Positions 14,175 through 31,579 of a stretch of DNA of 64,000 nt are shown in pieces. Source of the stretch: Nonomuraea rubra. GTDB lineage: Bacteria; Actinomycetota; Actinomycetes; Streptosporangiales; Streptosporangiaceae. Both the position numbers and the translations under genes were made by a program. The notes beneath the pieces were generated by a model that was not told the DNA's origin, did not search any database, and saw nothing but the letters and a program-made list of their open reading frames with translations. The DNA lies in assembly GCF_014207985.1 (NCBI RefSeq), contig NZ_JACHMI010000001.1, positions 12,259,001 through 12,323,000 on the forward strand, given 5' to 3'. Position 1 is the stretch's first letter; every line of letters starts with the position of its first letter.

Positions 14175-14500
14175 GAGTTTCTTCAGCTCAAGGCACACCG
14201 CGGAATGCCAGGCGCCGGGCGAGAGAGGACGGAGGATCGCCGGCAGGACCATGACCTGGTGTTCGCGGCCAAGCTCGCCACTCCCGTCGAACGCACCGAG
14301 GACTGGAAACCGAGGATTGGAAGCTGTGGAAGACCGTCCTCAAGCAGGCCTGGCGTTCGGGACGTCCGGGTACACGACGCTCGGCACACCGCCGCGACCC
14401 TACTCATCGAGCAGGGGGTGAACCTCCGAGTCGTACAGCAAGTTCTCGGTCACACCCGTGCGACGACCACCGAGCGCTACACCAACGGCACCTTCACGAG
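14175..14500 (+). pseudogene. Integrase relic A (C-terminal part)
   Basis: Homologous to the 3' third of the intact integrase at 30092-31438. Recognisable pieces are QDHDLVFAAKLATPVERTED and, after a frameshift caused by a short internal duplication (GAGGA-TGGAA), VRVHDARHTAATLLIEQGVN and QQVLGHTRATTTERYTN. The 5' two thirds are missing and the 3' tail diverges after the catalytic Tyr. Catalytic residues survive but the protein cannot be made. Confidence 0.85.
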
Positions 14501-14536
14501 ACCGCACGGAAAGCTATCCATGGCAACTCGCATACT

Positions 14537-15655
14537 TTACGTGCACGAAGAGTCGGGAATGCGTGACAGATCAAGCACTATCCACGATTTACGGTCAGAC
14601 GAGTTCCAGTATAGGAGCGGTTCCTCTGGGTTGGCCGCACGCTCGCCTCCCGTGAACACGTCGTAAGCGGCGCTGTCCTCCAGCAGCCCGCCGATCCTCC
14701 CCGATTTCTCCGTGCATCGGTCGTACTGAACCGGCTGTGGCGCGGGATGCTTCGCCGTGTACTTCATCTCCTTGTTGTCATTAACATACGGCCCCCCGAA
14801 AAGACCGAACCGATCGTTCATCAGGGGCCCTCCGTACGACGCCACGACTTCTCGACGCTCCGTCCCGTCCTTTCGCAGCACTACGAGTTTGGTCAGTTCA
14901 TAGAGACGAGTTGGCGGCATGCCGACACACCACTCGCGCCCGCACTGCGTTCCATCCAATTCCCGCACAGCCGTCGGCGCCGTCTGCGCGGCCGACGGGA
15001 GCCGCTGAACGGGCCCTCCACCCATCGGCACACGATAGGCATGCCGATCTCCGTACCAAACGACGTCATCACCGACTATCGACAGCTTGTCCTCAAACGG
15101 CACCTCGCCATGCCCGGTCAACCAGGTCACCAATCTCATTTCACCGCCCGACCGGGGCATCGTCCACAGTTCCATGTGTCGTTTGCCCGCGTTCCACGGT
15201 TCCGAGCGGTAGACCCCTGCGCTCCACACGATCCTGGTCTCACTCGTGGCCACGCTCATGATCTCGAAGCACAAACTACATTCTGCCCACTTCGGCGCAG
15301 TGCCGAGGGCGTGAACCCCGCCAGTACGAAGGTCATAGGAGTAAAAAGTGGGACGCATCTCTGACGAGGTGACCATCAGAGCCTCGTCCTCGCTCAACAT
15401 GGCCGCCGGCTTGATGGCTGGCTCGCCCTTGGCCTTCGCAGGCACCTTGACAACAGCATCACGCCATATGTTCGCCGCCAACTCAAGTTCGGGCACTTCG
15501 GGCAGCACCTGTGGACGCGCTGGGAGAGGTGGAGTGGCATCCTGAACAGTGCACGACAACGTGAAGGGAATCAGCATCAGCACTATGGTCGCGGCCCTAT
15601 ATAAGTTGGCGTGCCGGGCTTTGGCACTGGCAGTTGGATGTTCCGGCGGGAGCAT
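14537..15655 (-). CDS. Lipoprotein with beta-propeller-like body
   Basis: 372 residues from the ATG at 15655. Signal peptide with lipobox L-S-C (Cys35), so probably membrane-anchored outside the cell. The rest is rich in short beta strands with FYSYDLRTG, IVWSAGVY and LWTMPRSGGEMRLVTWL, and resembles the propeller proteins encoded at 37396 and 39539 downstream of sigma factors, which are anchored by a membrane helix instead. No sigma gene is adjacent here. It sits between two integrase relics, so it is cargo or captured DNA. Function unknown. Confidence 0.72.
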   Translation of the reverse strand: MLPPEHPTASAKARHANLYRAATIVLMLIPFTLSCTVQDATPPLPARPQVLPEVPELELAANIWRDAVVKVPAKAKGEPAIKPAAMLSEDEALMVTSSEMRPTFYSYDLRTGGVHALGTAPKWAECSLCFEIMSVATSETRIVWSAGVYRSEPWNAGKRHMELWTMPRSGGEMRLVTWLTGHGEVPFEDKLSIVGDDVVWYGDRHAYRVPMGGGPVQRLPSAAQTAPTAVRELDGTQCGREWCVGMPPTRLYELTKLVVLRKDGTERREVVASYGGPLMNDRFGLFGGPYVNDNKEMKYTAKHPAPQPVQYDRCTEKSGRIGGLLEDSAAYDVFTGGERAANPEEPLLYWNSSDRKSWIVLDLSRIPDSSCT

Positions 15656-15762
15656 GATTTCGATCCTACGCTTCAAGGGTCGGAACTCTGATCACGGCTG
15701 AATCACCATCCACCAGGCGCGACTCCGCGCCAATGCGAAGCATCGCTAGGGGCGGGAAGCAT

Positions 15763-16255
15763 TCCCATCGCTGTTGCAAGCGTCCCTGCCCGAAGGACTG
15801 CACGGGCCACGCGGACAAGTGCCCGAGGCGTACGGGCGGCGGCCTCTTCTTTCGGCAACGCAAGGGGAAGAGTCAGGCGCACGCTCCAGTGCCCTCCGGC
15901 GCTCCTACGCGCGCACAAGAAGCTCCAGGCCGCAGAGCGGCTGAATGCCGGGCACAAGTGGACCGATCATGATCTCGTCTTCACGACGAAACTCAGCGGC
16001 CCGATCGAGCGCACGGAGGACTGGAAGCAGAGGACGTCCATCCTCAAGCAGGCTGGCGTACTTGATGCCAGGGTTCACGACGCGGGGCGCACAGCGGCGA
16101 CCCTGTTGATAGAGCAGGGTGTCCACATCCGGGTCGTGCAAGAGGTCCTCGGCCACACCCGCGTCACGGCCACCGAGCGCTACACCCATGTGGCGCCCCT
16201 CCAGATGAAGGACGCCAGCAACCGCATGGACGAGGCCCCATGGGGCACTCCCTAA
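15763..16255 (+). pseudogene. Integrase relic B (C-terminal part)
   Basis: Homologous to residues about 286-448 of the intact integrase, including the Cys-rich CPKDCTGHADKCPRR piece, with one frameshift near 15890. The catalytic HDARHT has become HDAGRT, so the active-site Arg is lost, while ERYTHV is kept. It ends at a TAA at 16253 and is followed by the same terminator-att arrangement as the living integrase, showing it is the right end of an older element. Confidence 0.87.
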
Positions 16256-16292
16256 CGGCCAACTGCAACCTTGGCCCTCTTAGAAGATCAAA

Positions 16293-16322
16293 GGCCCTCC
16301 CCCCGGTTAAGGGGAGAGGGCC
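16293..16322 (-). terminator. tRNA-Ser-type terminator copy beside att2
   Basis: Arms GGCCCTCCCCCC and GGGGAGAGGGCC (one G-T pair) with a six-base loop, followed on the minus strand by TTTGATCTT. Homologous to the hairpin at 31485-31514. Confidence 0.7.
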
Positions 16323-16326
16323 TCCT

Positions 16327-16387
16327 ACCTGCGGAGGATCGGGGATTTGAACCCCGGATGGGCGGTAAACCCAAACCGCATTAGCAG
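16327..16387 (-). other. att2 / attL of the intact element
   Basis: 61 bp identical to the 3' 56 bases of tRNA-Ser(GCT) plus five flanking bases at 31519-31579. Identity stops at the anticodon loop, where the chromosome-side tRNA sequence is replaced by element DNA (CTCGGATCTTGACC). It marks the left end of the complete AICE and was the right end of the older one. Confidence 0.92.
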
Positions 16388-16472
16388 CTCGGATCTTGAC
16401 CGTCCAGATCCGTTCAACCTGGATCAACAGACCCGCCCGGTCCATCTGGAACGAAGTGAGACGGCACTGGAT

Positions 16473-16492
16473 TGCAACTAGCACTGCAACTA
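16473..16492. repeat. Left arm-type site, TGCAACTA x2
   Basis: Two TGCAACTA copies 12 bp apart (16473, 16485), followed by an inverted CAGTTGCA at 16499. The 20-bp block matches 31443-31462 in 19 of 20 bases. Likely Int or Xis binding sites at the left end. Confidence 0.6.
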
Positions 16493-16513
16493 AGGGAGCA
16501 GTTGCACGGGCCC

Positions 16514-16831
16514 TCACAGCTCCAGTGGCGGCAGTCCCTGAGCCTCTCGGTAGCGCTGTCGCTCTGCGGTCAAGGTGTCCGATCCGTTGGGGCCACCCAT
16601 CACTACGTCAGCGTTGTGATCGTCCTGTCCGTCGTCCTCCCAACAGCACTCCTCACACATCTCGAAGCCGCCGCGGTAGTGCAGGGTGGGGAGAAAGCAG
16701 CATGGGCAGGTGTACGCCTGATCGCCTGGCGGTAGCCGAAGGAAGTCTCCGCCCTGTACCTCCATCAGAGACAGGACCCATCGCTTGCGTTCGCGGATCT
16801 CCTCCATGCTGGGATGGGTCATGACAGTCAT
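16514..16831 (-). CDS. CPCC-type cysteine-rich protein
   Basis: 105 residues. Contains the CPCC signature (YTCPCCFLPTLHYRGGFEMC) followed by EECCWEDDGQDD and GGPN, as in pfam14206; the Cys pairs probably bind zinc. Function of the family is unknown. In-frame Met codons at residues 4 and 9 are alternative starts. It is the first gene of the intact AICE, transcribed towards the left att site. Confidence 0.8.
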   Translation of the reverse strand: MTVMTHPSMEEIRERKRWVLSLMEVQGGDFLRLPPGDQAYTCPCCFLPTLHYRGGFEMCEECCWEDDGQDDHNADVVMGGPNGSDTLTAERQRYREAQGLPPLEL

Positions 16832-17495
16832 GATGCCGTACGGCTCCGAGCATCTGTAGGCATTCTGGACCTGCGTCTTCCTGGCCGTCGGGAGTTGCCT
16901 CCGACCTTCCGACGATCACTACCCGCACCCCGCAACACCGTGGGCCAGGGCTGAGGAACGAAGCTCTGGACCTTCGATCGCCCCCGATCATGCACGATGG
17001 CCAGCCATGCAGTGGCGATCGTAGGGCTGCATCTGTGCGGCGGCGTGGCAACCCTGGTCGGTGCGTTCGGTTGACACGGCGGGGGCGGCGTGCGGTGGCC
17101 GGCCCGCTGTCCCGCCGCCGTCCGGGACCGGCCCCCAGGCCGCACGCCCGGACGGCGGGCGGGCGGAGGGCCGGAGGTACGGCGGCGCGCCGCGCCGCCG
17201 CTTGATACCTGAGAGATCAATTCGGCAAGTCCTTGAGGGCGAGCGCCCAAGGGCAGCTGTCGGTGCGTTCCCCGCCGGGGTTTTATAGGTGTGGCTCGAA
17301 CTGGCCGATACCGAGCAAGATGCGCACGCTTATCGTGTTCACCTTAAGAGTCTCCGCATCGCTACAGACTGGCGTGGCCCGGCTCAACGATGGAAAGAAG
17401 GTTAACAGCCCAACGATGCCCTTTTCAAGCATACCGCGCCTTAAATTAACAGTCCGCTCAAATGCATATCCATGGTAGACGCAACATCCAAAGCC
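16832..17495. other. Gene-poor stretch at the left of the AICE
   Basis: No convincing gene. The left half is very GC-rich and holds the second copy of the 75-bp repeat and a strong GGCGGCGCG-type inverted repeat near 17184-17203. From about 17290 the composition drops abruptly to AT-rich sequence that continues into the NACHT gene, marking the border of a separately acquired segment. Confidence 0.65.
17047..17120. repeat. 75-bp direct repeat, copy 2
   Basis: Pairs with 12669-12743; see that entry for the shared blocks. It lies inside the complete element. Confidence 0.65.
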
Positions 17496-20400
17496 TTATT
17501 TGCGAGCTTGGAAATCCGAAGCGATCAGTTGAGACAGTTCTCTAGAAAATCCCAGCTCCCCCCAAGCTGCTATACGGGTGAGCACACTTTGACGCGATCT
17601 CATTTTCTCTCTAAGTATACGGATTGCAAGTCCCGTCCATCTAGTATGCAATATGCCGGACTCGTATAAATTGACTAGAATGTCCTCTTTAGCCGAACCC
17701 GACGAGCTGAAGGCCAGCAATAGTATGTGGAGAGCCTCAGACAGCTCCTTCGGGTTATCTTCCTCACATTCACGAAGCTCAGCAATCAATGATTCATTCC
17801 AATAACCGCACCTTAATAGCAGCATTATGCGCGCAAGCCGCACTTCTATTGAAATCTCAGACGTGTCGAGCTTTATAAGCTTTTCAAGGAAGAGCGCGTG
17901 GGGCTCAAGACTATTTCCAACATAGGAGAGAGCCAACAGCAGCTCTTTTTCTTGCGGGTGATCAAGCCAAGCCTGCTGCATTATATCGCCGTATCTACGC
18001 TCGTTGATATCGTGCAAGAACATGAGATGTAGACTGCTATTTCGGCGAATAGATTTCGCGATAGCTTCGACCCATCTGCTTTTTCTTAACGCATCAGGAG
18101 ACACCTGGCACAATAATTGCACCCCAAGCATCGGAGACGTCTCAAACACGCCGTCTAAGAGAGCAGCGAAACTGGCGTCGAAGACAATAGACGCCCTCCC
18201 TCTCGGCGACAAGGCCATACTGGCCAGGAATTCACGAACCCGCCCAGCAGGAGATTCGATTGCAGCATTTATAAGGTTGCGCGGATCTTTAGGGTATGGA
18301 ATATTATGCGATTCCCTCTCTAGCAGCCTTATCGGGAACCATGGCTTGCCAGCTATCCCACTCCTCATAATATCTCCATCATGAAGTTGCTGGAGATGCA
18401 CGCCACGCCCAAACCAATCCTGCTGCCAAGTCAGCCAATCATCAATGTCCCCCAAGGCACCACTGCTAGCGGCGCTTACCAAAGCTTCCGTGCTATCCGG
18501 ATCCCAAAACGCGATCAGCGCTTCTGCAAGTGGCCATGGCGCCAAAGATGCGATTTTGAATACTACGTAATAATCTGCCTCACGCGCCGCCGAGATAAGA
18601 ACCTTAGCAAGGTTGTCACTGTTAGGAGATTTCATGAAGTCGAGATATGCTCTAATAGCATCCCAGCCTTGATCTCCTCCTGGAAACGTGTCGATTGCCT
18701 CACTTAGGCGTGTCGGCAGGATTGGGGGAAATCGACCCACTAGCAGGAGTTTGCGCCCACTCGTAATCCTGATTGACTTATCTCCACTTTTGCGGCTTGG
18801 AAACCAGAGTAGATTTGCTAATGGGCCGAGCCAATCAGGAGCTGATGGCGTGCTGACCCACGTTTGACGTGCATCGTCTAGGCCCGCGACACGTATTGGT
18901 CCCTGGGCCCGAGCGAGAGCACTGGCCGGGTAATCAAGAATTCTCCCGGCCAAAAACCCGTTCAGTGATGCTGAATCGTGGTTGCCATCCACGAGGAGCG
19001 TCTGGAACAACTCCTCATCAATATTTCGACTATCGAGCAGATTCGCAAAAAGAAGCGCGAAATCTGCGTCGTGCTCTGCTAGGTAGCTAAGACATACCCA
19101 TGCATTGTTTGCAGCATTCGGATCGCTACCGCCAATTCTGCTACGTATTTCAGATAAGAAGACGTCCGAAGTTTCCTTCTGCCATACATTAGCGAGGCGA
19201 GGTGCCCAATCTGTGAACTGATCATCTAAAAGCCTCAGGGCTGTACGTGTAAGCATTCGATTCCATCGTGGCTGGCGTCGTGCGGAACCTTCCTCCAGAA
19301 CGTCAAGAGCTAGTTCAGAGCCTGCAAGCGTGTACCTAGCAACCCTGTCCTCGATATCATCATTAAGCTCGCTACAAACCGCATGAATAGTGTCACGCAA
19401 ATATTGACGGTCAAAAAAGCACTTGCCCGTGGCGAAGAGAAATACATTGCGCCAGTTGGTATTTCCCGCTATGGCCTTCAAGCGATTTTGGGTCATCTTG
19501 TCATCAGCAGCCATCAGACCTTCTGCGGCCATAAACTCTTGCAGGGAGCGAATCTCAAAACCAACCTGGCCTTGTTCGAGCCCGACAAGAAACACTAGTC
19601 GGTGTGCTGCGGCCTCGATAATGGATGCGACAAGCGTGGAAAGACTTTCGCTCTCGTGCCCCTCTTCGTGAAGGTGGCACTCCACAATCTTTTGGAATTG
19701 ACCAATTGTCAGCTTCGCATCAGTTCCGCCTGATCGTTCCGCTTCAACTTGCAGCAGGAGGCCGACCTGTCGATGAACGGTAATGATGTCAGTTTTATAC
19801 TCACGCAAGACCGCAGCGGCCGGAATATCCCTTTCGATCTCTCGATGGTAAATCAGCTTAAAATACTCGTCAAAGAGAGGCCAACGCTCCTGCGGGGGTT
19901 GTCCCATGCGGTCTAACAGTAACGTTAGAATGGTGACTTGCAAAGGACTTCGCATTAAACGCGCAGTCGCCTCGTTTTCGGCTGCACGACGAATGCGCCT
20001 TTTAATCTTCTCTACCCGGTCAACATCTCCGCTGAATCTAACCTCTGCAAGCTTACTTCCATATTCGATGGCTTGATTAGGGGAAAGGTGGGTCATCCAG
20101 TGATGGGAATAAAACTTGGGCGAGAATTCCTCATTATATCCCTGAGGCCGACTGGTGGCGACGACCAAGACGTCAATGTCGGAGCCTGTTAGCTTTGAAG
20201 AAGCTATGTCAGCCCAGAAGTCCTTAATAGCCCCTAGGACTTGGTCGCGATTTGTCGACGCGGGAACTTCGTCTAGGCCATCAAATATGAGAATACTTGG
20301 ATAGGCGGCGAGTAAGGATTGGAAGTCACGTATCCTTAGATCGCCGTCTGTTCTCATGTTGAAGACATTAGTTAGGTATCCCAAGACACTGGTAGTTTGC

Positions 20401-21518
20401 TTATCGGCAAGACTTTTAGCAAATTCGCTTAGGACTACCCGAAATGGGATTCGACGCGCTCCAGGCTTGGCAAGAAGACCGTCATCCCATTGTTTTTTAA
20501 TCGCAGCTACTATGGCTGCCGGCTCATGCTCAACAGTTCCATCTGGGAGATCAACCAACAGCGCTGCGCGAAATACTTGACATATATACTGCCCGACTGT
20601 TGTCTTTCCCTGCCCTGGTCCTCCAATGAGAACGTGCCGTCCAACTGGCCGCGCTCTTTCAGAATTATCCTGCCAATCATCCTGTCGACAGTGGAGGGAT
20701 GATTCACGGATAATGAGATCCGCAAAGTATAGGTCTTTGCTGGCTTGCATACCATGAGGGCTATCGATTGTTAGGTCAGGATGCGGCTCCGCTGCCACTG
20801 GTACGTCTACGAATACCTGCGAAAGCGGTATTGCCTCATCGGCCGAATGGCCTGCCTGCTCCAATTTGGCAAATTGGTCAACACGTAGCTCCTTCTGTAA
20901 GAACCGAGCAATTAAGTAGCGATAATCGGGTCGCTGAGACTGCAGTGTCTGGGCCAGTTCTGCCAAAACGTCACCTGGTGTCACCCATGCCATATACGCT
21001 TCACGCACATCCTTGTTATTATCGAGGAGGATGCGAAGCTTGTCATAGTCCCATACGTCTACATCTTTTAGCTGATGCTTCCTGGCAAATTGGCGAAGCT
21101 CTCTGAAAACTTTGTCCTTGCTTCCGGTACGAGAAACAGAAGTTAGAGCAACGTTGGTAGCCAAAATGTAGTAGTCCATTTGCCGGTTAGAGTCTCGCTT
21201 AGCATACTTCGCTAACTCGGCTTTGAGTTCCTTAAGTACCCATCGACCATCCGCGGTCGAATTGCTTGGGCGTTGGAGGAATTTCGCCTGAATGACGCCA
21301 TAGCCGTTCCATTGACCGGAATCGACACCATACTTGGTTGGACCGTCGAAGGTTGCCTCGCGACCTCCGTCAGGACCGTCTCCAAAAGGAGTGGTCGTCT
21401 CTGTTATCGTCTTTATGCATAGAGCCTGTACGAAGTGCTCGAAGCTACGAGGGCTTAGCCCGTCGAGACGGTAGTCGGTCACGAGCTGAGAGTATCCGAT
21501 GGGTGAGACATGTTCCAC
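17496..21518 (-). CDS. NACHT-type STAND NTPase with N-terminal PD-(D/E)XK-like domain, putative defence protein
   Basis: 1340 residues. Residues about 24-160 resemble a Mrr/Cap4-type nuclease: FEHFVQALC helix, then GDGPDGGREATF with Asp50/Glu54 and VIQAKF with Gln77-x-Lys79. The NACHT NTPase follows: Walker A GGPGQGKTT (299-307), Walker B SILIFDGLDEV (408-418), sensor VVATSRPQG (452-460), then a winged-helix-like region. The last ~700 residues are helical and repeat-like, as in sensor arms of STAND proteins. Known relatives (Avs and bNACHT) sense phage proteins and kill or degrade DNA, so anti-phage defence is inferred. Base composition is far lower in GC than all neighbours. GTG start at 21518. 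Confidence 0.85.
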   Translation of the reverse strand: MEHVSPIGYSQLVTDYRLDGLSPRSFEHFVQALCIKTITETTTPFGDGPDGGREATFDGPTKYGVDSGQWNGYGVIQAKFLQRPSNSTADGRWVLKELKAELAKYAKRDSNRQMDYYILATNVALTSVSRTGSKDKVFRELRQFARKHQLKDVDVWDYDKLRILLDNNKDVREAYMAWVTPGDVLAELAQTLQSQRPDYRYLIARFLQKELRVDQFAKLEQAGHSADEAIPLSQVFVDVPVAAEPHPDLTIDSPHGMQASKDLYFADLIIRESSLHCRQDDWQDNSERARPVGRHVLIGGPGQGKTTVGQYICQVFRAALLVDLPDGTVEHEPAAIVAAIKKQWDDGLLAKPGARRIPFRVVLSEFAKSLADKQTTSVLGYLTNVFNMRTDGDLRIRDFQSLLAAYPSILIFDGLDEVPASTNRDQVLGAIKDFWADIASSKLTGSDIDVLVVATSRPQGYNEEFSPKFYSHHWMTHLSPNQAIEYGSKLAEVRFSGDVDRVEKIKRRIRRAAENEATARLMRSPLQVTILTLLLDRMGQPPQERWPLFDEYFKLIYHREIERDIPAAAVLREYKTDIITVHRQVGLLLQVEAERSGGTDAKLTIGQFQKIVECHLHEEGHESESLSTLVASIIEAAAHRLVFLVGLEQGQVGFEIRSLQEFMAAEGLMAADDKMTQNRLKAIAGNTNWRNVFLFATGKCFFDRQYLRDTIHAVCSELNDDIEDRVARYTLAGSELALDVLEEGSARRQPRWNRMLTRTALRLLDDQFTDWAPRLANVWQKETSDVFLSEIRSRIGGSDPNAANNAWVCLSYLAEHDADFALLFANLLDSRNIDEELFQTLLVDGNHDSASLNGFLAGRILDYPASALARAQGPIRVAGLDDARQTWVSTPSAPDWLGPLANLLWFPSRKSGDKSIRITSGRKLLLVGRFPPILPTRLSEAIDTFPGGDQGWDAIRAYLDFMKSPNSDNLAKVLISAAREADYYVVFKIASLAPWPLAEALIAFWDPDSTEALVSAASSGALGDIDDWLTWQQDWFGRGVHLQQLHDGDIMRSGIAGKPWFPIRLLERESHNIPYPKDPRNLINAAIESPAGRVREFLASMALSPRGRASIVFDASFAALLDGVFETSPMLGVQLLCQVSPDALRKSRWVEAIAKSIRRNSSLHLMFLHDINERRYGDIMQQAWLDHPQEKELLLALSYVGNSLEPHALFLEKLIKLDTSEISIEVRLARIMLLLRCGYWNESLIAELRECEEDNPKELSEALHILLLAFSSSGSAKEDILVNLYESGILHTRWTGLAIRILREKMRSRQSVLTRIAAWGELGFSRELSQLIASDFQARK

Positions 21519-21727
21519 CCTATGTTCACCCGATATGCGTGGTTATCGCCCTTTCGATCAGATTGTGGCTAGATTTGCCATTGCACTTGCCGCCCTCAGC
21601 CTGAACCCACCGGGCTTCCTGTCCTGGGTGCTAGGAAGAGCTCAGAGTACAGCCTTCGGAAGGATCTACGGCGATGCCTTTTCTCGGAGTTATGTACTGC
21701 CGATCAGCAAGAAGGTAACTTCGCGGT

Positions 21728-22291
21728 GTGGCTGACGACGCTGAGCTGACGCGCTGGATAGTGCACGGAGAACGACTCGTCTACGAGAACCGGTGGGTCC
21801 GGTTGGGCCTGGCAGATGTGGAGATCCCTGGTGGGGAGCGGTTTGAGCATCATGTGGTGCACCTGGATCGGGCGGCGATCGCTGTCGTGCTGGATGAGCA
21901 GGACCGGGTGTTGATGATGTGGCGGCATCGGTTCGTGTTCGATCGGTGGGGGTGGGAGCTTCCCGGCGGGCTGATCGAGGCGGGTGAGGATCCGATGGTC
22001 ACCGCTCTCCGGGAGGTGGAGGAGGAGACCGGGTATCGGCCGAAGGGCTTGGAGCCTCTGGTCTCGTATCAGCCAATGGCGGGGATGGTCGACTCCGAGC
22101 ACATGCTGTTCGTTGGGCGTGGGGCTGAGCTGGTGGGCGAGCCTGAGGGTGAAGTAGAGGCCGACCGGATCGAGTGGGTCCCCATGAGCGAGATCCCGGG
22201 CTTGGTAGCCCGCGGGGACATCTGGACGTCGGGGACCTTGGTCGGGGTGCTGCAGGCGCAGGTGTGGCTCAACAACCAAGACCGCGGTTGA
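21728..22291 (+). CDS. Nudix hydrolase, Pif-like
   Basis: 187 residues from a GTG with an AAGGTAAC site upstream. Nudix box at 81-103 (G-x5-E-x7-REV-x-EE-x-GY) with the ADP-ribose pyrophosphatase-like lead WGWELPGG. In pSAM2 the immunity factor Pif is a Nudix protein that blocks redundant transfer, and many AICEs carry one in this position, so that role is inferred. Its last 23 bp overlap the convergent XRE-TPR gene. Divergent from the NACHT gene across a 209-bp spacer. Confidence 0.87.
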   Translation: MADDAELTRWIVHGERLVYENRWVRLGLADVEIPGGERFEHHVVHLDRAAIAVVLDEQDRVLMMWRHRFVFDRWGWELPGGLIEAGEDPMVTALREVEEETGYRPKGLEPLVSYQPMAGMVDSEHMLFVGRGAELVGEPEGEVEADRIEWVPMSEIPGLVARGDIWTSGTLVGVLQAQVWLNNQDRG

Positions 22292-23486
22292 CGGCCTTGG
22301 CCAGTTCGTTGATGCGACGGCGTTGCCGGCGGCTGCCGGTCATGGTGGCCAACTGCTGGGCTCGCTGAATGTGGGGCTGGGCGGCTTCGGCGTCTCCGGC
22401 GGCGAGCAGGGCGTGGGCGAGGTCGCAGCGGACGCCGGACTCCGCGCGGTTGTAGGTGCCGTCCATCCCGGCCAGGGCTGAGCGCAGGTCCTCGGCGGTG
22501 GCGGGGTCACCGAAGCGAACCAGGCAGTTGCCGCGCCAGCGGGCCAGGTGGTGGGTGTTGATCGACAGGTAGGGCATGTCCGGGTCGGCGTCCCCGCCGG
22601 GGAGCAGCGAGACGGCCTGATCGAGGGCTCGGCGGCAGGTGGCCTCATCGCCCAGGACAGCAGCGGCTTCCGCTTCGGCGGATGAGAGCCAGGTCCTGAG
22701 TCGGGCGGGTACGCGGGTGTGATGCTGGGCGTGCACGTGCTGAAGGAGCTCCATCGCCTCAGCAGGCCGGCCGAGTTCCATCAGGACATAGGCCTGTTCG
22801 CCGGAGACGTAGGCCAGGACAGCGGGATCCTCGGCTTCGTAGGCGGCGGCCTTGGCCTGCTCGTAGTGGTGCCAGGCGTCCTTGAGGGCCAGAGCGTTAA
22901 TGGCCTGCCAGCCGGCCAGGGACGCGGTCTCGGCGAGGAGGTGGGCGAGCTCGGCGCGCATACCGGGGCGTACGGAGTGACGGTGTGCACGCTGGATCTG
23001 CGAGATCTGCGCGAGCATCTTGTCCGCGATGGCCACTCCCCCGAGCCGCCGATCCAGAAGGCGCAGGTTGTTGGTATCGGTGCGCAGGATCATGACCGTG
23101 GTCGGGTCGATGGTCGCCGTGCTGTCCAGCAGTGCGGCGAGTTCGCGGGCCTGGTCTTCGTGCTCGTCGTCCTCTTCGTGGGCCTGGGGTGTACCGGCGA
23201 GCGGGGCCAAGCCGAGGAGCATGCGGGCGTGATCGGGCAGGCGCAGGCCGTTGGCGACGCGCTCGATGACGGCGAGCTCCTTGATACAGCCGCCCCCGTT
23301 GAGGATTTTGTTGACGCGAGGCTGGCCCAGGCCGGTGGCGGTGCCGATGCGGACCTGGCTGGCGCCGTATTTTCGGGCGATCCTGAAAAGTCCGGCAATG
23401 TCGCGGCTTTTGAGTATTTCCCGGGTTTCGTCCTGATCCCAGACGGCATCGGGTAGCTCAATTGGGTCGAACGCGCCATTTTGCAT
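22269..23486 (-). CDS. XRE-type HTH regulator with TPR-like C-terminus
   Basis: 405 residues. Start ATG at 23486 decided by GGAGGTCC just upstream; the open frame extends to 23954 but that part is a shadow. HTH at about 28-80 (IARKYGASQVRIGTATGLGQ), then a hinge rich in Asp/Glu, then helical repeats from about 150 typical of TPR signal-sensing domains (quorum or peptide sensing in relatives). It is likely an element-encoded control protein. Divergent from the small-gene operon starting at 23595. Confidence 0.83.
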   Translation of the reverse strand: MQNGAFDPIELPDAVWDQDETREILKSRDIAGLFRIARKYGASQVRIGTATGLGQPRVNKILNGGGCIKELAVIERVANGLRLPDHARMLLGLAPLAGTPQAHEEDDEHEDQARELAALLDSTATIDPTTVMILRTDTNNLRLLDRRLGGVAIADKMLAQISQIQRAHRHSVRPGMRAELAHLLAETASLAGWQAINALALKDAWHHYEQAKAAAYEAEDPAVLAYVSGEQAYVLMELGRPAEAMELLQHVHAQHHTRVPARLRTWLSSAEAEAAAVLGDEATCRRALDQAVSLLPGGDADPDMPYLSINTHHLARWRGNCLVRFGDPATAEDLRSALAGMDGTYNRAESGVRCDLAHALLAAGDAEAAQPHIQRAQQLATMTGSRRQRRRINELAKAVNRGLGC

Positions 23487-23594
23487 TTCGGACCTCCGGC
23501 TTTCCGTTGCCGGGATGATGTCGTGCTCCGCCGTGGAGCCTATATGCGCTCGTGCTATATCAGCGTGAGATAGGTCTGAAAAGCATGGACATTC

Positions 23595-24020
23595 ATGCTG
23601 ACCGGCATGACAACGCCAGTTAGATGCACAGAGTGCGAGGGACGAGGCTGGAAGATCGTCACTCGTCGCGGCCACATGACCGCCTCCGGGCTGGGCCTGG
23701 CCGCGTCCGCTCAGGAGGACTGCCTTTTCTGCACCGGCTCCCCCGAGACGCAGCGAGAGGGCTTCTCCTGGACCGTCCGCGTTCTCACCGAGAACGGCGA
23801 AGTCGCTGGTCCGAGCGGATGGAGCGGGTTCCAGGCCACCGCGATGGACGAGCTGCGCACGGCGATGCGCGCCATGCCGCGCGAAACCTCGATCCGGGGC
23901 AGCATCCGGCACACCTGCTACGACTTCGGCGCCGGTGAGAACGCCCAGGCTCACCGCGAGACCTTCCGCGCGTACGTGGATCCAGCCGGGTCCGTGCGAT
24001 TCGAGCGGGTGGAGAAATGA
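23595..24020 (+). CDS. Hypothetical protein with DnaJ-like zinc knuckles
   Basis: 141 residues (or 137 from the ATG at 23607). N-terminal CTECEGRGW and DCLFCTG resemble the paired CxxCxGxG zinc motifs of DnaJ, but there is no J domain. The rest is unassigned. First gene of a run (23595, 24017, 24349) joined by four-base overlaps, typical of AICE accessory operons. Confidence 0.68.
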   Translation: MLTGMTTPVRCTECEGRGWKIVTRRGHMTASGLGLAASAQEDCLFCTGSPETQREGFSWTVRVLTENGEVAGPSGWSGFQATAMDELRTAMRAMPRETSIRGSIRHTCYDFGAGENAQAHRETFRAYVDPAGSVRFERVEK

Positions 24021-24352
24021 TCTCCCCGGCCATGGTCACTTTGGACCCATGCCGGTCAGCGGAAACCCTCCGCGACGCTTTGCAGCGAGACGGCATCAAT
24101 TCCGACGTCCACGACGGTTACGGACTGGCGCTGGTTTCAGTCTGGGTGGGCTTGGTCGTGTGGTGCGACGGCGAACGTCTTTGGTGGCGTACCGGATGGA
24201 ATGCCGATCGCCGCCGCGTCATTTACGCCTGGCATCCGGCGTCTGATCCTCTCCGGGCGGCCCGCCGCATCGCCATGCGGTACGCCGAGCTGCGCGCCCA
24301 GCACCACCCGATCACCTCACACTGTGCCGGCACCTCGGCGGAGCCGTTGTGA
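24017..24352 (+). CDS. Hypothetical AICE protein
   Basis: 111 residues, soluble. Opens with ATGA overlapping the previous stop and ends with GTGA overlapping the next start, so it is translationally coupled on both sides. Contains a WCDGERLWWRTGW segment rich in Trp. No recognised domain. Confidence 0.65.
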   Translation: MISPAMVTLDPCRSAETLRDALQRDGINSDVHDGYGLALVSVWVGLVVWCDGERLWWRTGWNADRRRVIYAWHPASDPLRAARRIAMRYAELRAQHHPITSHCAGTSAEPL

Positions 24353-24765
24353 GCCGGATCGGCTGGCGGGCCACCATCGTGAGCACCCTGCACAGCCATG
24401 CCCGCGTCCGTGCCAACAGCGCTGCGCTGATAGGCCGTGAGGGCGTTGTGGTCGCGGTGCTCCGTAACGGCACAGCGGCTCTCGTCCAGCTCGATGAGCA
24501 CCCGTTCGGTCTGCCCTGCGGAGTCCTGCGCTGGCCACTGCAATGGGACGATCTCGATCTCAAAGAGCCGATCGAGGTGGCTTGTCCCCTGGACTACGTG
24601 GTCGGCCTCTCGGCGGGCCAGGTGCACGCGGTCATCCCCGGCACAACGGCCAGCCTCTGCTCGGCTCCAGTCCGGCCGCTGCCGTTCTGCGGCTGGTCGG
24701 TCAGGTTTTCTCCGCACGTTTCCCGGGCTTGCCCTATGTGCGCGGCCCTGGTGACGGGCTCCTGA
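24349..24765 (+). CDS. Hypothetical AICE protein
   Basis: 138 residues, GTG start overlapping the preceding stop. The central part (GREGVVVAVLRNGTAALVQL) looks like a small beta-barrel, with a C-terminal CxxC (CPMC). No family recognised. Last gene of the coupled trio before the KorSA-type promoter. Confidence 0.62.
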   Translation: MSRIGWRATIVSTLHSHARVRANSAALIGREGVVVAVLRNGTAALVQLDEHPFGLPCGVLRWPLQWDDLDLKEPIEVACPLDYVVGLSAGQVHAVIPGTTASLCSAPVRPLPFCGWSVRFSPHVSRACPMCAALVTGS

Positions 24766-24797
24766 GTTACATCCTGCTCGCTTATGAACGCGGGCCG

Positions 24798-24865: not shown

Positions 24866-25582
24866 ATGGGCATGGATTTCGCCCCACCTAAATACGCGCA
24901 GGTCATGCGGACAATTCAGGACCGCATCGAGTCGGGCGAGTACGCCCCCGGCGACATGCTGCCGTCCGAAACCCAGCTCGTGCGCGAACTCGGCGTCGGC
25001 CGGACCACCGTCGTACGCGCGTTGCAGACCCTCGCCATGCAGGGATGGATCGAACGGGAGCACGGACGCGGCTCGTTCGTCAAAGGCCGCCCGCAGAGCG
25101 CGGCCGACCGTGCACACCCCAGCCTGACGACAGCAGAGCAGGGCGAGAGCCCGAACGCGGTCCTTGAAGCCGGAAGAGTTCCGGCTCCCCGCCATATCGC
25201 CCGGCTGCTCGGCGTCGCCGAGAAGACCCCCGTGGTCGTACGCAAACGGCTCGCCCGGCAAGCCGACGTGATCTCGGCGGTAGAGACCGTCTGGGTCCCC
25301 CTGGAACACGCCCTCGGCACGGACCTGGACAAGCCCGAACCCTTGCGGCACGGCATCCGCCAGCACCTCCAGGCCGTCAAACACCTGCGCTTCGACCACA
25401 TCACCGAGCGGATCAACGCCCGCCCGCCCACCAAGGAAGAGGCCGAACTGCTCGGCTCGTCCGGGCCGGTCCTCGGCGTGCTGGCCACCGTGCACGACCC
25501 TGCCGGCAACGTGCTGATGGTGGTCAGCCTGGCCCTGCCGGGGAGCCTGCACGAGCTCGAAGATGTCTTCAAGGTGAGCTAA
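24866..25582 (+). CDS. GntR-family repressor, KorSA-like
   Basis: 238 residues. GntR winged helix at about 6-76 (YAPGDMLPSETQLVRELGVG, then RTTVVRALQTLAMQGW) and a C-terminal UTRA-like effector domain from about 95. In pSAM2, KorSA represses pra and thereby replication, excision and transfer. The same order (repressor then Pra homologue) and three shared operator copies around the two promoters support that role here. ATG at 24866. Confidence 0.85.
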   Translation: MGMDFAPPKYAQVMRTIQDRIESGEYAPGDMLPSETQLVRELGVGRTTVVRALQTLAMQGWIEREHGRGSFVKGRPQSAADRAHPSLTTAEQGESPNAVLEAGRVPAPRHIARLLGVAEKTPVVVRKRLARQADVISAVETVWVPLEHALGTDLDKPEPLRHGIRQHLQAVKHLRFDHITERINARPPTKEEAELLGSSGPVLGVLATVHDPAGNVLMVVSLALPGSLHELEDVFKVS

Positions 25583-26521: not shown

Positions 26522-27940
26522 ATGTTCAAGCGCCTACCTGGCGACGAGGCACGCAACCTCGTCTCCACGACCCCGGACACGGCCGTCGTCTTCCGCCCGG
26601 CCGTGGTCACCACTCCCGCCATCCTCACCCTGATCATCCTCGCCGGGCGTGTCCTGGCCGGGCTGGTCCGGATGACCTGGCGGCACCCCATCGCCATGCT
26701 CGCCGCCGTCGCTCCCGGCGTGCTCACCATCCTGTACGGCTGGCAGACCGCGCTTCTGCTTACCGCACCCACCCCGGCCGGGCTCGCCGCCTGGGCGCTG
26801 ACCGACCGGGACTCGTTCGTCCGGCTGGTCGGGCGTCGGCTGCAAGCCTGGTGGCGGCTCATCTGGATCTACCGGCGGCACTGGCAACCGGTGATGATCG
26901 TCTCCGGCCTGGGCAGGCACATCCGGGGACGCGACTACCTGCCCCGCCTCGTCAAGGTCACCTGCACCCCATGGGCGGATCTGGTGACCGTGCGCATGCT
27001 CAAGGGCCAGGCGGTCAAGGACTGGGCCGACCGCCTCGACCACCTCGCCCAGGGCTTCGGCGCCGTCTCCTGCCGGGTCGCGCTGACTCACTCCGGGCGG
27101 CTGACACTGACCTTCCCGCGTCACGACCCGCTCGCCGTCCCGATCCCATCACGCCCGCTGCCGGACGCGGCCACCGTCGAGGCGATCGAGGTCGGCAAGC
27201 AGGAGGACGGGCGTCCCTGGCTGCTCAAGGTCCACGGGACTCACGTGCTCGTGGCAGGCGCGACCGGGGCCGGCAAGGGCTCGATCCTGTGGTCCGCGAT
27301 CCGCGGGCTTCTCCCCGCCGTGGCCGAGGGCCTGGCCGAACTGTGGGCGCTGGATCCCAAGCTGATGGAGCTGTCCTACGGCCGGGATCTGTTCGGGTCA
27401 CGCTACGCAGCCACGCCGGAAGAGTGCGCCGATCTGCTGGACGAGGCCGTGAGCATCATGCAGAAGCGGGCCGCTCGGTTCGCCGGTCTCCAGCGCAACC
27501 ACACGCCCACCGTCGATGACCCGTTCGTCCTGGTCGTGGTCGATGAGGTGGCGTTCCTGACCGCGTACCAGACGGACCGGCAGCTCAAGCACCGCATCTC
27601 CGCCGCGCTGGCCACGCTCACCACCCAGGGCCGCGCGGTGGGCGTCGGTGTCTTGGCGGCGCTCCAGGACCCCCGCAAGGAGGTCATGAACATCCGCAAC
27701 CTGTTCCCCGACAAGATCGCCCTCCGGCTGGACGAGTCGGAACAGGTGGACATGGTCCTCGGTGACGGCGCCCGCGACCGGGGCGCTCTGGCAGACCACA
27801 TCTCCCTTGTCCCCGAACTCGGCGCGGGCATCGGATACGTCCGGCTGGAGACCAGCCCCGAACCCGTCCGGGTCCGCGCGGCCTACGTCTCCGACACCGA
27901 CATCCGCGCCATGGTCGCCACCTTCGGGAGGGCGGCATGA
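26522..27940 (+). CDS. FtsK/SpoIIIE-type DNA translocase (TraB/TraSA-like)
   Basis: 472 residues. Two to three N-terminal membrane helices (about 30-90), then an FtsK-type motor: Walker A GATGAGKG (246-253), Walker B VLVVVDE (336-342), and TTQGRAVGVGVLAALQDPRK. Actinomycete conjugation uses a single such hexameric pump to move double-stranded DNA between hyphae; this is the main transfer protein. GAGGAGG ribosome site upstream. Next gene overlaps by four bases. Confidence 0.92.
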   Translation: MFKRLPGDEARNLVSTTPDTAVVFRPAVVTTPAILTLIILAGRVLAGLVRMTWRHPIAMLAAVAPGVLTILYGWQTALLLTAPTPAGLAAWALTDRDSFVRLVGRRLQAWWRLIWIYRRHWQPVMIVSGLGRHIRGRDYLPRLVKVTCTPWADLVTVRMLKGQAVKDWADRLDHLAQGFGAVSCRVALTHSGRLTLTFPRHDPLAVPIPSRPLPDAATVEAIEVGKQEDGRPWLLKVHGTHVLVAGATGAGKGSILWSAIRGLLPAVAEGLAELWALDPKLMELSYGRDLFGSRYAATPEECADLLDEAVSIMQKRAARFAGLQRNHTPTVDDPFVLVVVDEVAFLTAYQTDRQLKHRISAALATLTTQGRAVGVGVLAALQDPRKEVMNIRNLFPDKIALRLDESEQVDMVLGDGARDRGALADHISLVPELGAGIGYVRLETSPEPVRVRAAYVSDTDIRAMVATFGRAA

Positions 27941-28137: not shown

Positions 28138-28282
28138 CGTGGCCTACCTGCTGGAGGGACTGCGCTGCTCGACCTGCCAGTCCGACAACACACTCTGGCT
28201 CGACCTGGAGCCGGGCATCGTCGAGTGCCGCGAATGCGGCCAGGGCGCGCTCATCGTCGCCGACGACGGGGAGGAGCGGTGA
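28130..28282 (+). CDS. Zinc-ribbon microprotein
   Basis: 50 residues with two CxxC pairs: CSTCQSDN near residue 13 and CRECGQG near 34, spaced like a rubredoxin-type zinc ribbon. Overlaps the previous gene by eight bases and the rep gene by four (GTGA). Possibly a DNA- or protein-binding accessory of replication; unproven. Confidence 0.7.
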   Translation: MRDVAYLLEGLRCSTCQSDNTLWLDLEPGIVECRECGQGALIVADDGEER

Positions 28283-29889
28283 CCTACGATCGCGCTCTGC
28301 CCCGGGCCGAACGGCTGCGCATGCCGTGGGCGCGTGACGTCGCTCTGGAGGTCGCCAAGCAGTACGGCGTGTGCATCCGGCCCGTCGCACTCAAGCGGAT
28401 CGACCTGCAGACCGGGCAGAGCGAGATCATCGATGTGCCCTGCGGGGCTACGCGGGAGGCCGTCTGCCCGCCGTGCGCTAAGCGCAACCGGCAGCTCCGC
28501 ATGGCCCAATGCCGGGAAGGCTGGCACCTCGACCACGAACCGGCCATCACCCCGGACGAGCCGAACGACGAACAACGCTGGCTGATCGAGTTCCGTGCTG
28601 ACATGCAAGCCCGCCGGGACGCCGCCGAGCAGGCCGGCGAGGACACCACCGACCTGGACGCCGTCCTGTCCGGCCTGGACGACGAGATCAACGCGGCCGG
28701 GATGCGCGGCAACGTCCTCGGCCGGACCACGCCCAAGCGCACCCGATCGACCCGGCGACGGCAGGATGCTCCAGACCTGCCCCGCCGCAAGATGGCCAGC
28801 ACGACACTCGGCCGGACGTTCACCAGCTCGGACGGCAAGGTCTACCGGCCCTCGCTGTTCGTCACGCTGACCCTGCCCAGCTACGGCAAGATCCGCGACG
28901 GCGTCCCGATCGATCCCGACACCTACGACTACGCTCGCGCGGTCCGCGACGCGCTGCACTTCTCCAAGCTGGTCGATCGCTTCGTGCAGAACCTCCGCCG
29001 GGTAGCGGGCTACGACGTGCAGTACTTCGCCTCCGTGGAACCTCAGAAGCGGCTCGCCCCGCACCTGCACATGGCGATCAGGGGCACCCTGCCACGCGCG
29101 GAGATCAAGCAGATCGCGGCGGCCACCTACCACCAAGTGTGGTGGCCCCCTGCCGAGCGGGTCGTCTTCGACGGCGAACACCTGCCCGTCTGGGACGACC
29201 AGACCGGTTACATCGATCCCGCCACGGGCGAGGTCCTGCCCACCTGGGACGAGGCGCTCGACCAGCTCGACACCGACGAGACGACCGAACCCCTGCACGT
29301 GATCCGCTTCGGCACTCAGGTGGACGTGCAAGGCGTGCTGGCCGGCACTCCCGACGCCGACCAGTGCATCCGCTACCTGTCCAAGTACCTGACCAAGTCA
29401 CTCGGCGAAAGCCTCGACACCGACCACCAGGCACGCCGTGATCACGCCGCCCGCCTGGCCGAAGCCCTGCGGTTCGAACCCTGCTCGCCCACCTGCGCCA
29501 ACTGGCTCCGCTACGGCATCCAGCCCAAGGACGCCAAAGCCGGGATGACCCCGGGCCGCTGCCGCGGCAAGGCCCACAAGCCCGAACACCTCGGCTACGC
29601 CGGGCGCCGCGTCCTGGTCTCCCGCAAGTGGTCCAACAAAACCCTGGCCGAACACAAGCAGGACCGCCGTACGTGGGTCCTGGAAGCCCTCGGCCAAGCC
29701 GACCAACCACCAGACCCACACCGATACGCCTGGAAGCCCTTCCCGGCCGGAGACGCCAACGTGCCGCCCCTGGCCGTCCGGCTCCTCCGCACAGTGGCCG
29801 AACGTCAACGATGGCGAGCCCACATGGCCCAACTCGAAGCCCGAGCAGCGGGCCAAGATCTTTCGGCAGTCAGAGAGGAGGCAGCGTGA
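28279..29889 (+). CDS. repSA: Rolling-circle replication initiator, RepSA-like
   Basis: 536 residues from the GTG at 28279, which has GGGGAGGAG upstream and overlaps the previous stop. HUH endonuclease motifs are visible: motif I FVTLTLP (194-200), motif II PHLHMA with His262/His264, and motif III YLSKYLTK (366-373) with the candidate catalytic Tyr. An early CPPCAK with a nearby Cys may bind zinc. This class nicks the double-strand origin and drives excised AICE replication. The double-strand origin itself was not located. Confidence 0.92.
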   Translation: MTYDRALPRAERLRMPWARDVALEVAKQYGVCIRPVALKRIDLQTGQSEIIDVPCGATREAVCPPCAKRNRQLRMAQCREGWHLDHEPAITPDEPNDEQRWLIEFRADMQARRDAAEQAGEDTTDLDAVLSGLDDEINAAGMRGNVLGRTTPKRTRSTRRRQDAPDLPRRKMASTTLGRTFTSSDGKVYRPSLFVTLTLPSYGKIRDGVPIDPDTYDYARAVRDALHFSKLVDRFVQNLRRVAGYDVQYFASVEPQKRLAPHLHMAIRGTLPRAEIKQIAAATYHQVWWPPAERVVFDGEHLPVWDDQTGYIDPATGEVLPTWDEALDQLDTDETTEPLHVIRFGTQVDVQGVLAGTPDADQCIRYLSKYLTKSLGESLDTDHQARRDHAARLAEALRFEPCSPTCANWLRYGIQPKDAKAGMTPGRCRGKAHKPEHLGYAGRRVLVSRKWSNKTLAEHKQDRRTWVLEALGQADQPPDPHRYAWKPFPAGDANVPPLAVRLLRTVAERQRWRAHMAQLEARAAGQDLSAVREEAA

Positions 29890-30092
29890 TGGAGCCCTTG
29901 TTCTATCGCCCCAAGGACGCGGCCACGCTTCTCGGCATGAGCCGCACGGCTGTCTTCCGACTCATCAAGACGGGCGAACTCAAGTCGATCAAGGAGGACG
30001 GCTATCGCCTGGTTCCGCGATGGGCGCTCGCGGAGTTCGCTCGCACGCTGGAAGCCAGAGCGGGGCTGGTACGGACCGAGGACGTGGCCTGA
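29889..30092 (+). CDS. xis: Excisionase (Xis), MerR/HTH_17-like
   Basis: 67 residues. Single winged HTH: YRPKDAATLLGMSRTAVFRL then LIKTGELKSIKEDGYRLVP. The ATG overlaps the rep stop by one base (TGATG) and its own stop overlaps the int start the same way, so rep-xis-int form one coupled unit as in pSAM2. Assists Int in excision. Confidence 0.88.
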   Translation: MEPLFYRPKDAATLLGMSRTAVFRLIKTGELKSIKEDGYRLVPRWALAEFARTLEARAGLVRTEDVA

Positions 30093-31438
30093 TGGCGAAG
30101 AAGCCGAATGGCCGCTCCTCCATCTACTTCGGCAACGACGGCTATTGGCACGGCTGGATCACGGTAGGCATCAAACCGGATGGCTCTCCCGATCGTCGTC
30201 ACCGAATGGCCAAGACCGAGGCTGAAGTGACCCGCAAGGTCGCCGAACTGGAGGGCAACCGCGAGACCGGACAGGTCACCAAGCCGGGCCGGGTGCCCAC
30301 GGTCGCCGAATGGATGACCGAATACCTCGATGTGATCTGCGAACGCCTCGTGGCCTCCGGGAGGATGGCACCGCGTACCCTGGCGGACTACCGCTCGAAG
30401 ACACGTCACTGGATCGTTCCCCTTCTCGGCCGCCATCGGCTGAACCGGCTCGCTCCTGAGCACCTCGACACCGCGTACACGGCGATGCTGGACAAGGGGT
30501 TGTCCACAAGTACCGTCCTCAAGGTGCACCGGATCATCTCCCGCGCGCTCAAGGTGGCTGTGCGGCGCGACAAGGTCACGCGGAACGTGGCGACCCTCGT
30601 TGAGGCGCCCACAGCAGCGGAGACCGAGATCGAACCGCTGTCGCGCGAGGAGGCTCGGCGCATCCTCTACGTGGCCAGGACCAAGAGGAACGGCACCCGC
30701 TGGTCGGTGGCGCTCTCGCTCGGCATCCGCCAGGGCGAGGCCCTCGGGCTCCGCTGGTCGTACATCGACATGGACACCGGCGAGATCCGCGCCTGGTTCC
30801 AGGTGCAGCGCCAGGAATGGCGTCACGGGTGCAACGACCCGCATGCCTGCGGTGAGAAGTGGCATCGCCGACCGTGCCAGAAGAAGTGCAAGATCCACGG
30901 ACATGGACCGGCGTGCAAGCCGGACTGCTCAAAGCCGGGCCATGCCTGCTACAAGCGGCCCTGTCTCAAGGACTGCACCGGCCACGCGGACAAGTGCCCC
31001 AAGCGAAGCGGTGGCGGCGTGGTCTTTCGGCAGCGCAAGGGCAAGAGCAAGCTCACCCTTCAATGCCCGCCCGAGCTCCTCGCCCAGCTCAAGGCACACC
31101 GCGAGATTCAGGACACTGAGCGAGAAAAGGCGGGAGATCGATGGCAGGATCATGACCTGGTGTTCGCGACCAAGCTCGGCACTCCCATCGAGCGCACCGA
31201 GGACTGGAAGCTGTGGAAGACCATCCTCAAGCAGGCCGGCGTTCGGGACGTCCGGGTCCACGACGCCCGGCACACCGCCGCGACCCTACTCATCGAGCAA
31301 GGGGTGAACATCCGAGTCGTACAGCAGGTTCTCGGCCACACCCGCGTGACGACCACCGAGCGCTACACCCACGTATCCACACCGCTGATGCGCGATGCGG
31401 GGGAACGGCTCGCGTCCGCTCTCTGGGGAAACTCGTAG
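30092..31438 (+). CDS. int: Tyrosine recombinase integrase with cysteine-rich insertion
   Basis: 448 residues from the ATG at 30092 overlapping xis. AP2-like arm-binding N-terminus (about 10-60), core-binding domain (70-165) and catalytic domain with Arg213 (SLGIRQGEALGLRW), His390 and Arg393 (VHDARHT), His416 (LGHTR) and Tyr425 (ERYTHV). Between the first Arg and the rest, residues 247-302 hold ten Cys and several His in CxxxC-type spacing, a likely zinc-binding insertion seen in some actinomycete integrases. Acts on the tRNA-Ser site immediately downstream. Confidence 0.95.
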   Translation: MAKKPNGRSSIYFGNDGYWHGWITVGIKPDGSPDRRHRMAKTEAEVTRKVAELEGNRETGQVTKPGRVPTVAEWMTEYLDVICERLVASGRMAPRTLADYRSKTRHWIVPLLGRHRLNRLAPEHLDTAYTAMLDKGLSTSTVLKVHRIISRALKVAVRRDKVTRNVATLVEAPTAAETEIEPLSREEARRILYVARTKRNGTRWSVALSLGIRQGEALGLRWSYIDMDTGEIRAWFQVQRQEWRHGCNDPHACGEKWHRRPCQKKCKIHGHGPACKPDCSKPGHACYKRPCLKDCTGHADKCPKRSGGGVVFRQRKGKSKLTLQCPPELLAQLKAHREIQDTEREKAGDRWQDHDLVFATKLGTPIERTEDWKLWKTILKQAGVRDVRVHDARHTAATLLIEQGVNIRVVQQVLGHTRVTTTERYTHVSTPLMRDAGERLASALWGNS

Positions 31439-31518: not shown

Positions 31519-31579
31519 ACCTGCGGAGGATCGGGGATTTGAACCCCGGATGGGCGGTAAACCCAAACCGCATTAGCAG
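31519..31579 (-). other. att3 / attR within tRNA-Ser(GCT)
   Basis: 61-bp core identical to att2. It covers the tRNA from the anticodon loop to the 3' end plus five bases, so integration rebuilds an intact tRNA next to int. Confidence 0.92.

Follow-up and report, generated by a model that had tools for sequence, protein, structure and literature searches.

A putative nuclease-NACHT-solenoid defence protein in a cargo slot of a RepSA-type AICE of Nonomuraea rubra

The stretch of DNA considered here (the window, 64,000 nucleotides of contig NZ_JACHMI010000001.1 of Nonomuraea rubra) harbours an actinomycete integrative and conjugative element (AICE) and, inside it, next to the gene pif, a minus-strand gene (17496..21518) whose product appears to join a nuclease, a NACHT module and a long helical solenoid in one chain. 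We consider it reasonably probable that this is a self-contained bacterial defence protein of the nucleotide-binding leucine-rich repeat (NLR) type, one of the signal transduction ATPases with numerous domains (STAND), carried as exchangeable cargo of a RepSA-type AICE and working by the mechanism outlined below. By analogy with characterised proteins, its most likely role would be that of an abortive-infection STAND nuclease. This reading is backed by the order of the domains, the motifs conserved in them, the predicted folds, the rapid divergence of the solenoid and the abundance of defence genes in the slot.

The open reading frame (ORF) runs for 1340 codons from a GTG start, and the longest stop-free run across 200 shuffles of its own bases reached 227 codons. 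Since M13 is nearly invariant among the relatives (an alignment of 110 rows) and a Klebsiella relative begins at query residue 12, the true start probably lies at residue 12-13 (near 21482), which would give a protein of ~1328 aa and lower by ~12 the residue numbers used here, counted from the GTG. The gene is single-copy in its own genome. A protein search scored 7993 candidates, of which 1468 reached E ≤ 1e-3, and relatives occur among actinobacteria, cyanobacteria, Proteobacteria and Priestia; the best seven align over 99% of the query, with 45-61% identity, and five carry names (Streptosporangium, Microbispora, Sphaerisporangium, Spirillospora and Nonomuraea). Scans with short peptide patterns returned one distant fragment from the genome collection and none from the viral collection. 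A near-identical copy, P0121, on a 12.93-Mb contig, has only 760 aa and loses its frame after a G run near the C-terminus, for which sequencing error, decay and phase variation are alternative explanations.

The N-terminal domain (20919..21482, minus strand; residues ~13-200) bears the stretches G48-P-D50-G-G-R53-E54-A and Q77-A-K79, already singled out in a preliminary description of this DNA as nuclease-like and now found to be conserved in 112 aligned sequences. D50 and Q77-x-K79 compose the catalytic D...(D/E/Q)xK motif of Mrr-like PD-(D/E)XK nucleases. In one alignment D50, R53, Q77 and K79 are invariant in 110/110 rows and E54 is kept in at least 90%; in a more distant set (A7), one protein out of 11 (L017) is without the D and K of the motif. 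The predicted elements (H23-37, E54-57, E74-79, H87-107, E116-121, H133-148, E152-156) would fit a restriction-endonuclease core fold, judged by order alone. PADLOC models of Argonaute-associated REase-TIR proteins match the domain in 35/36 family members, and the PDC-S73 model matches 32/36 (E ≤ 0.01 in both cases). Mrr-type nucleases of Argonaute systems, and DUF4365 too, have been described as PD-(D/E)XK relatives (PMC6299218). The same domain, at 38-41% identity, heads two proteins of ~1530 aa, namely L021 (4395-8981), an NB-ARC protein with tetratricopeptide (TPR) repeats, and L022 (5774-10357), and it lies inside two proteins of 646-682 aa that are blank in Pfam at E ≤ 0.01, L020 (5721-7766) and L023 (6260-8197), possibly a further defence family. 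Such a variety of contexts points to a shuffled effector.

The central module (19224..20927, minus strand; residues ~198-765) is predicted to adopt the succession of nucleotide-binding, helical, winged-helix (WHD) and second helical domains (NBD-HD1-WHD-HD2) of NLR proteins. Its Walker A (residues 299-307, G299-G-P-G-Q-G-K305-T-T) and its Walker B (413-417, D413-G-L-D-E417), both noticed beforehand, are invariant or nearly so in the 112 sequences, and together they make up the bacterial NACHT (bNACHT) hallmark of a Walker A with a NACHT-type Walker B (DGxDE). When residues 1-780 were submitted to Foldseek, Avs3 (8dgc) appeared at rank 24 (E 1.2e-4), outranked by animal NLRs; Avs chains are not among the best 50 VIA-align rows, which does not count against kinship. 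Animal NLRs carry in the WHD a His motif, F-x-H-x-S-F-Q-E-F, and from an alignment by eye we take Ile656 to occupy the position of this His in the window protein. The residues on either side, E655 and R657, are invariant in 110/110 rows, and Ile656 in place of the His may mean a different resting-state lock.

The C-terminal region (17499..19223, minus strand; residues ~766-1340), a putative sensor, is nearly all helix in the predicted model, as the preliminary description had expected, and forms a HEAT/ARM-like solenoid of ~575 residues; no NACHT-associated Pfam domain was found for the window protein at E ≤ 0.1. The solenoid diverges fast apart from a conserved island at residues ~950-1040. 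By alignment, the tail is kept, though diverged, in the nearer family and is not kept farther out. For 107 of the 120 best relatives (of 1468) the alignment extends across 73-99% of the query, for the other 13 across 58-63%. Samples of 337, 394 and 396 genomes were searched at family, class and phylum level, and distant relatives were drawn from partly overlapping samples of 345, 394 and 396 genomes, where 14 further genomes gave a match at E ≤ 1e-60 and five additional order-level genomes matched over the nuclease alone. The alignment stops at residue 759-803 in 13 of these 14 distant relatives and reaches 1038 in one; the island is the sole part of the tail that BLAST detects among them (in one, L088), and beyond the NACHT module 11 of them have a tail of 185-238 aa and three one of 506-569 aa. 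A search with the sensor only (residues 760-1340) gave three proteins at E ≤ 1e-3, two close relatives and the frame-broken copy, and is insensitive because its 7989 scored candidates were chosen by words from one sequence.

In a plasmid collection, 18 of 72,556 records match, in no case over 80% of the query or past residue 814, one of them being 11.85 Mb long and thus probably a chromosome; among 50,697 phage records no match to the NACHT protein was obtained. The relative on a Klebsiella variicola plasmid (L098, 6013-9975; 1320 aa) aligns over residues 12-763 at 28% identity, and with the family profile at an hhalign E of 3.2e-74. A Lit-family phage exclusion gene stands ~2.6 kb away, a TerB-domain gene is also nearby, and megablast with the gene of this relative found no match in 5,426 E. 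coli genomes. The flanks of the 14 distant relatives (up to ~8-11 kb a side, less for some) show partial integrase similarity in two cases and GntR similarity in two; pif, RepSA or Tra similarity occurs in 0/14 fetched flanks, and the idea that the family is generally AICE-borne was therefore rejected.

The genomic context constitutes the other line of evidence. The gene sits in a slot whose left edge is a conserved, non-coding, GC-rich palindromic block of 289 bp (16940..17228, plus strand) and whose right edge is a partly conserved segment of 63 bp upstream of pif (21665..21727, plus strand). The preliminary description had reported a sharp drop in GC from about 17.29 to 21.6 kb, a location between the left att site and pif, and a possible cargo hotspot, all of which agree with what we find: the ORF has a GC of 0.505 and 17229-21664 as a whole one of 0.509, vs 0.655 on the left (16388-17228) and 0.676 on the right (21728-31518), and the same slot is recognisable in sister elements. 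A search with pif matched 70 of the 337 family genomes, its own included (E ≤ 1e-60), and 20 sister loci were taken from 18 of the matching genomes, 19 of these loci belonging to the same genus. Within the parts fetched, pif, the HTH-TPR (helix-turn-helix) gene, gntR and tra occur together in 18/20; no match was found for tra in L066 and for gntR and tra in L072. The block is matched by nhmmer in 16/20 loci, always in the same orientation, with stretches 78-91% identical, and its DNA folding z is -3.6. In seven loci (L063, L065, L067, L068, L069, L072, L073; two recognised by the last bases of the block) the slot is empty, the 3′ end of the block standing 60-63 bp from pif, and the flanks of the window, once joined, reproduce this arrangement. 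In ten others (L054-L057, L059, L061, L062, L064, L066, L070) the slot is filled, with 1509-5504 bp between block and pif; this distance is 4499 bp in the window. The remaining three, L058, L060 and L071, show no block in 4.2, 9.4 and 5.6 kb upstream and have low-GC cargo 4, 1831 and 18 bp from pif; their block may lie beyond the available 4.2 to 9.4 kb. The tRNA-Ser att sequence recurs upstream of pif, within the parts fetched, only in L056, L057, L062 and L072, so that the left end of the remaining sister elements was not located.

A second or partial copy of the block was observed in L054, L057, L061 and L062. Moreover, its 3′ part is also found on the Actinomadura plasmid NZ_CP059573.1, which bears an FtsK gene; this, together with the strong folding, suggests a possible role for the block as an origin or in transfer. 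Between 17201-17290 and 21641-21728 there is no direct repeat of at least 6 bases and no inverted repeat of at least 7, and hence no transposon-like ends are visible. A separate transposon as the source of the GC drop was rejected on these grounds and because one insertion point is common to the sister elements.

Upstream of pif, 26 low-GC ORFs were collected in the sister loci and 20 were scanned with PADLOC (E ≤ 1e-3); two of the six unscanned ones are in-slot (L055, L059), and the in-slot ORFs of L064 and L066 were likewise unscanned. Matches were obtained for 16/20 scanned ORFs and for 13/14 of those in the slot, the three loci without a block counted in. The in-slot matches include, besides three weak ones, HerA (1.7e-20), LmuB-like proteins of the Lamassu type (2e-19 and 2e-20), RT_UG23 of the DRT class (1e-185), PDC-M68B (6e-139), NsnA (3e-70), DzbB (2e-8), AbiU (1e-28) and two methyltransferases. 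Pfam concurs for many cargo ORFs (RVT_1, GmrSD_N, AIPR, HNH, N6_Mtase, and DUF2326 with an ABC-3C domain). Conserved edges enclosing varied genes of defence type, as recognised by profile, thus identify the slot as a mobile-element defence hotspot. Near the slot, outside it, L066 encodes a caspase-domain protein with a DUF6119-like region (8722-10062). SMC-like proteins weakly like LmuB are encoded in L055 (7383-9356) and in L060 (5360-7555), the latter beside a type II methyltransferase-like gene, and are candidates for a new system.

By its gene set and its tRNA att repeats the element is a RepSA-type AICE with predicted mobility. The youngest element begins on its left with attL (16327..16387, plus strand), 61 bp that duplicate the 3′ part of tRNA-Ser(gct) (31523-31613) without a mismatch and recur exactly as attR (31519..31579, plus strand) within that part. 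On the plus strand follow the pif-like NUDIX hydrolase (21728..22291; PF00293 E 7.5e-21), a GntR-UTRA regulator (24866..25582), an FtsK/SpoIIIE-type transfer protein (26522..27940; PF01580 E 3e-9), the RepSA replication initiator (28225..29889; PF20199 E 9.5e-110) and a tyrosine integrase (30020..31438; PF00589 E 8.8e-26), and on the minus strand the HTH-TPR regulator (22269..23954), which with the GntR-UTRA regulator belongs to the backbone. Tandem accretion at this tRNA site is suggested by what lies to the left of the active element, namely a third att-like copy that has diverged (12749-12877) and fragments resembling an integrase (14184-14487 and 15765-16387). Between attL and the block there is a Cys-rich ORF of 105 aa (16514-16831, minus strand) with a motif that we take to be CPCC-like. 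An Rfam scan of 12000-32000 found the tRNA alone. An AICE gene set of integrase, RepSA, FtsK-type Tra, NUDIX and GntR has been described (PMC11706625; see also PMC3218068).

How such a protein might act can be outlined as follows. In the uninfected cell, the NACHT module would be at rest as an ADP-bound monomer. Once a phage infects the cell, or another mobile element enters it, the solenoid would bind a foreign or infection-altered protein, and the NACHT module would then swap its nucleotide and oligomerise. The oligomer would gather the N-terminal Mrr-like nuclease domains, and these would cut DNA without much specificity, halting or killing the cell ahead of phage release, from which the AICE would gain because the host lineage survives. 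While anatomy and context are observed, we infer trigger, oligomerisation and cutting by analogy with bNACHT25 and bNACHT32, two PD-(D/E)XK NACHT proteins whose degradation of DNA follows phage infection and depends on an active-site Asp (PMC12169576).

Several points weigh against this proposal. The NACHT relationship and the PD-(D/E)XK-like N-terminus put forward in the preliminary description hold for the motifs and, in the former case, for the predicted fold. As to profiles, Pfam NACHT stays under its cut-off in the window protein (E 0.018) and in relatives L015-L017, passes it in L014 and is unlisted for L018 (E ≤ 0.01), and nuclease profile support is weak, Mrr_cat reaching E ≤ 10 in 6/11 members of a varied set (0.005 at best) and leaving the window protein unmatched. 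Furthermore, the fold comparison took in the putative nuclease together with the NACHT module (residues 1-780), and by sequence no meaningful match to solved structures was found with the protein, a 44-row profile, the nuclease domain of a relative or the Klebsiella relative as queries. The sensor is not swapped within the nearer family, and P0121, with its broken frame, hints either that the cell can do without the gene or that the assembly holding this copy contains an error. As regards the slot, the matches in L056 (4e-4), L057 (2e-6) and L070 (9e-5) are weak, and 5/14 in-slot ORFs, from L058, L060 and L071, were placed there by closeness to pif alone. Only 2/10 high-GC controls from the same loci match PADLOC (a TPR model and a transporter model; p 0.0005 against the in-slot ORFs), in an unmatched comparison where low GC was the criterion for picking cargo and high GC the one for picking controls (the 10 longest of 30). 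In turn, 3/6 low-GC ORFs outside the slot match as well (NsnA, caspase and Pycsar cyclase; L065, L066, L069), so that defence genes are enriched near the slot and not only inside, and the in-slot figure differs from this one with p 0.06.

Other explanations have to be considered. The target could be other mobile elements, such as conjugative plasmids or rival AICEs, whose incoming transfer or replication proteins would be sensed and whose entry would be met by cutting DNA, complementing a Pif that blocks redundant transfer of the same element. The NACHT gene adjoins pif, whose product serves pSAM2 as an immunity factor (PMC3218068), and relatives were found in the plasmid collection (one of the 18 records being chromosome-sized) and none in the phage records. 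Nevertheless, we hold this to be unlikely, considering that the other slot contents match antiphage classes (DRT, Lamassu-like, NsnA/PD-T4-2-like, AbiU) and that bNACHT25 and bNACHT32, of the same layout, respond to phages (PMC12169576). No more probable, in our opinion, is that the solenoid guards a host process, binding a host protein and reporting its disturbance with no direct phage ligand. The dependence of bNACHT25 on DnaJ offers a precedent (PMC12169576), and the island, the one tail segment recovered from a distant relative, could be a constant binding face in a variable solenoid, but the fast divergence of the rest fits better with direct contact with changing phage proteins. Lastly, the gene could be decaying or selfish cargo, an addiction gene or a pseudogene in waiting with no present defence role, given that Streptomyces AICE cargo is often pseudogenised (PMC9513070) and that P0121 is frame-broken; we find this decidedly improbable for a copy open over 1340 codons with every listed motif intact and with relatives in such diverse bacteria.

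Going beyond an abortive-infection STAND nuclease carried as cargo, one could speculate, with considerable reserve, that the block anchors a platform for the exchange of defence modules, in which cargo would be swapped at one exact point by the replication or recombination of the element and a nuclease-NACHT chassis with lineage-exchanged helical sensors would be among the modules, amounting to a two-level modular repertoire with new phage triggers. At any rate, the analysis provides a concrete nuclease-NACHT family with a confidently modelled tail for which no Avs model is listed, and with relatives from actinobacteria to a Klebsiella plasmid. It also gives exact positions for the defence cargo slot that a lineage of conjugative elements of actinobacteria has in common. 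Reading this slot across more genomes would be a cheap route to new actinobacterial antiphage systems; some of its cargo (e.g. L056, L057, L070) matches known models only weakly.

Among known systems, the Avs1-5/AVAST proteins have a tripartite nuclease-STAND-sensor layout, as the window protein does. The PADLOC and NCBIfam libraries contain Avs models, and none matched the window protein (E ≤ 1 and E ≤ 0.1, respectively). PDC-S73 has the N-terminal nuclease profile in common, the match of its 752-aa model being weak here (E 2.2e-6); in relatives L014 and L016 it aligns at the Walker A too, and nothing on it appeared among the 20 literature matches listed of 321. Argonaute-associated REase-TIR proteins share the nuclease profile too, the TIR and Argonaute-associated parts being their own. 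Animal NLRs (NLRC4, NOD2, NLRP3) show 11-15% identity in the structural-match rows and carry caspase recruitment or pyrin domains (CARD/PYD) and leucine-rich repeats, in place of which the window protein has a nuclease and a helical solenoid.

With bNACHT25 and bNACHT32, of clade 6, the window protein shares a putative N-terminal PD-(D/E)XK domain, a central NACHT, a putatively sensing C-terminus and a single-gene organisation, the essential Asp 48 of their nuclease being comparable to D50 (as listed). Clade 6 carries an NCH1 C-terminal domain (PMC12169576), whereas the tail described here is a solenoid, the two being compared by description; Pfam gave no NCH1 domain at E ≤ 0.1, the presence of an NCH1 model in that set not having been checked. 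The layout thus resembles that of bNACHT25, with a different tail. As for AICEs, a figure legend on a Frankia element (2011) names a Nacht-domain NTPase (PMC3218068), and restriction-modification and AIPR genes have been reported among Streptomyces AICE cargo (PMC9513070); a fixed defence slot is not described in the available parts of these two reports, nor was this nuclease-NACHT family or slot found described in the accessible portions of the open-licence literature on AICEs and defence. The layout itself is already known, and so are, from these sources, a NACHT gene and defence-type cargo on AICEs. P2 phages and P4 satellites likewise combine a backbone with a variable locus for antiphage systems (PMC9122126); unlike their hotspots, the slot described here belongs to an actinobacterial conjugative element and has a palindromic non-coding block as one of its edges.

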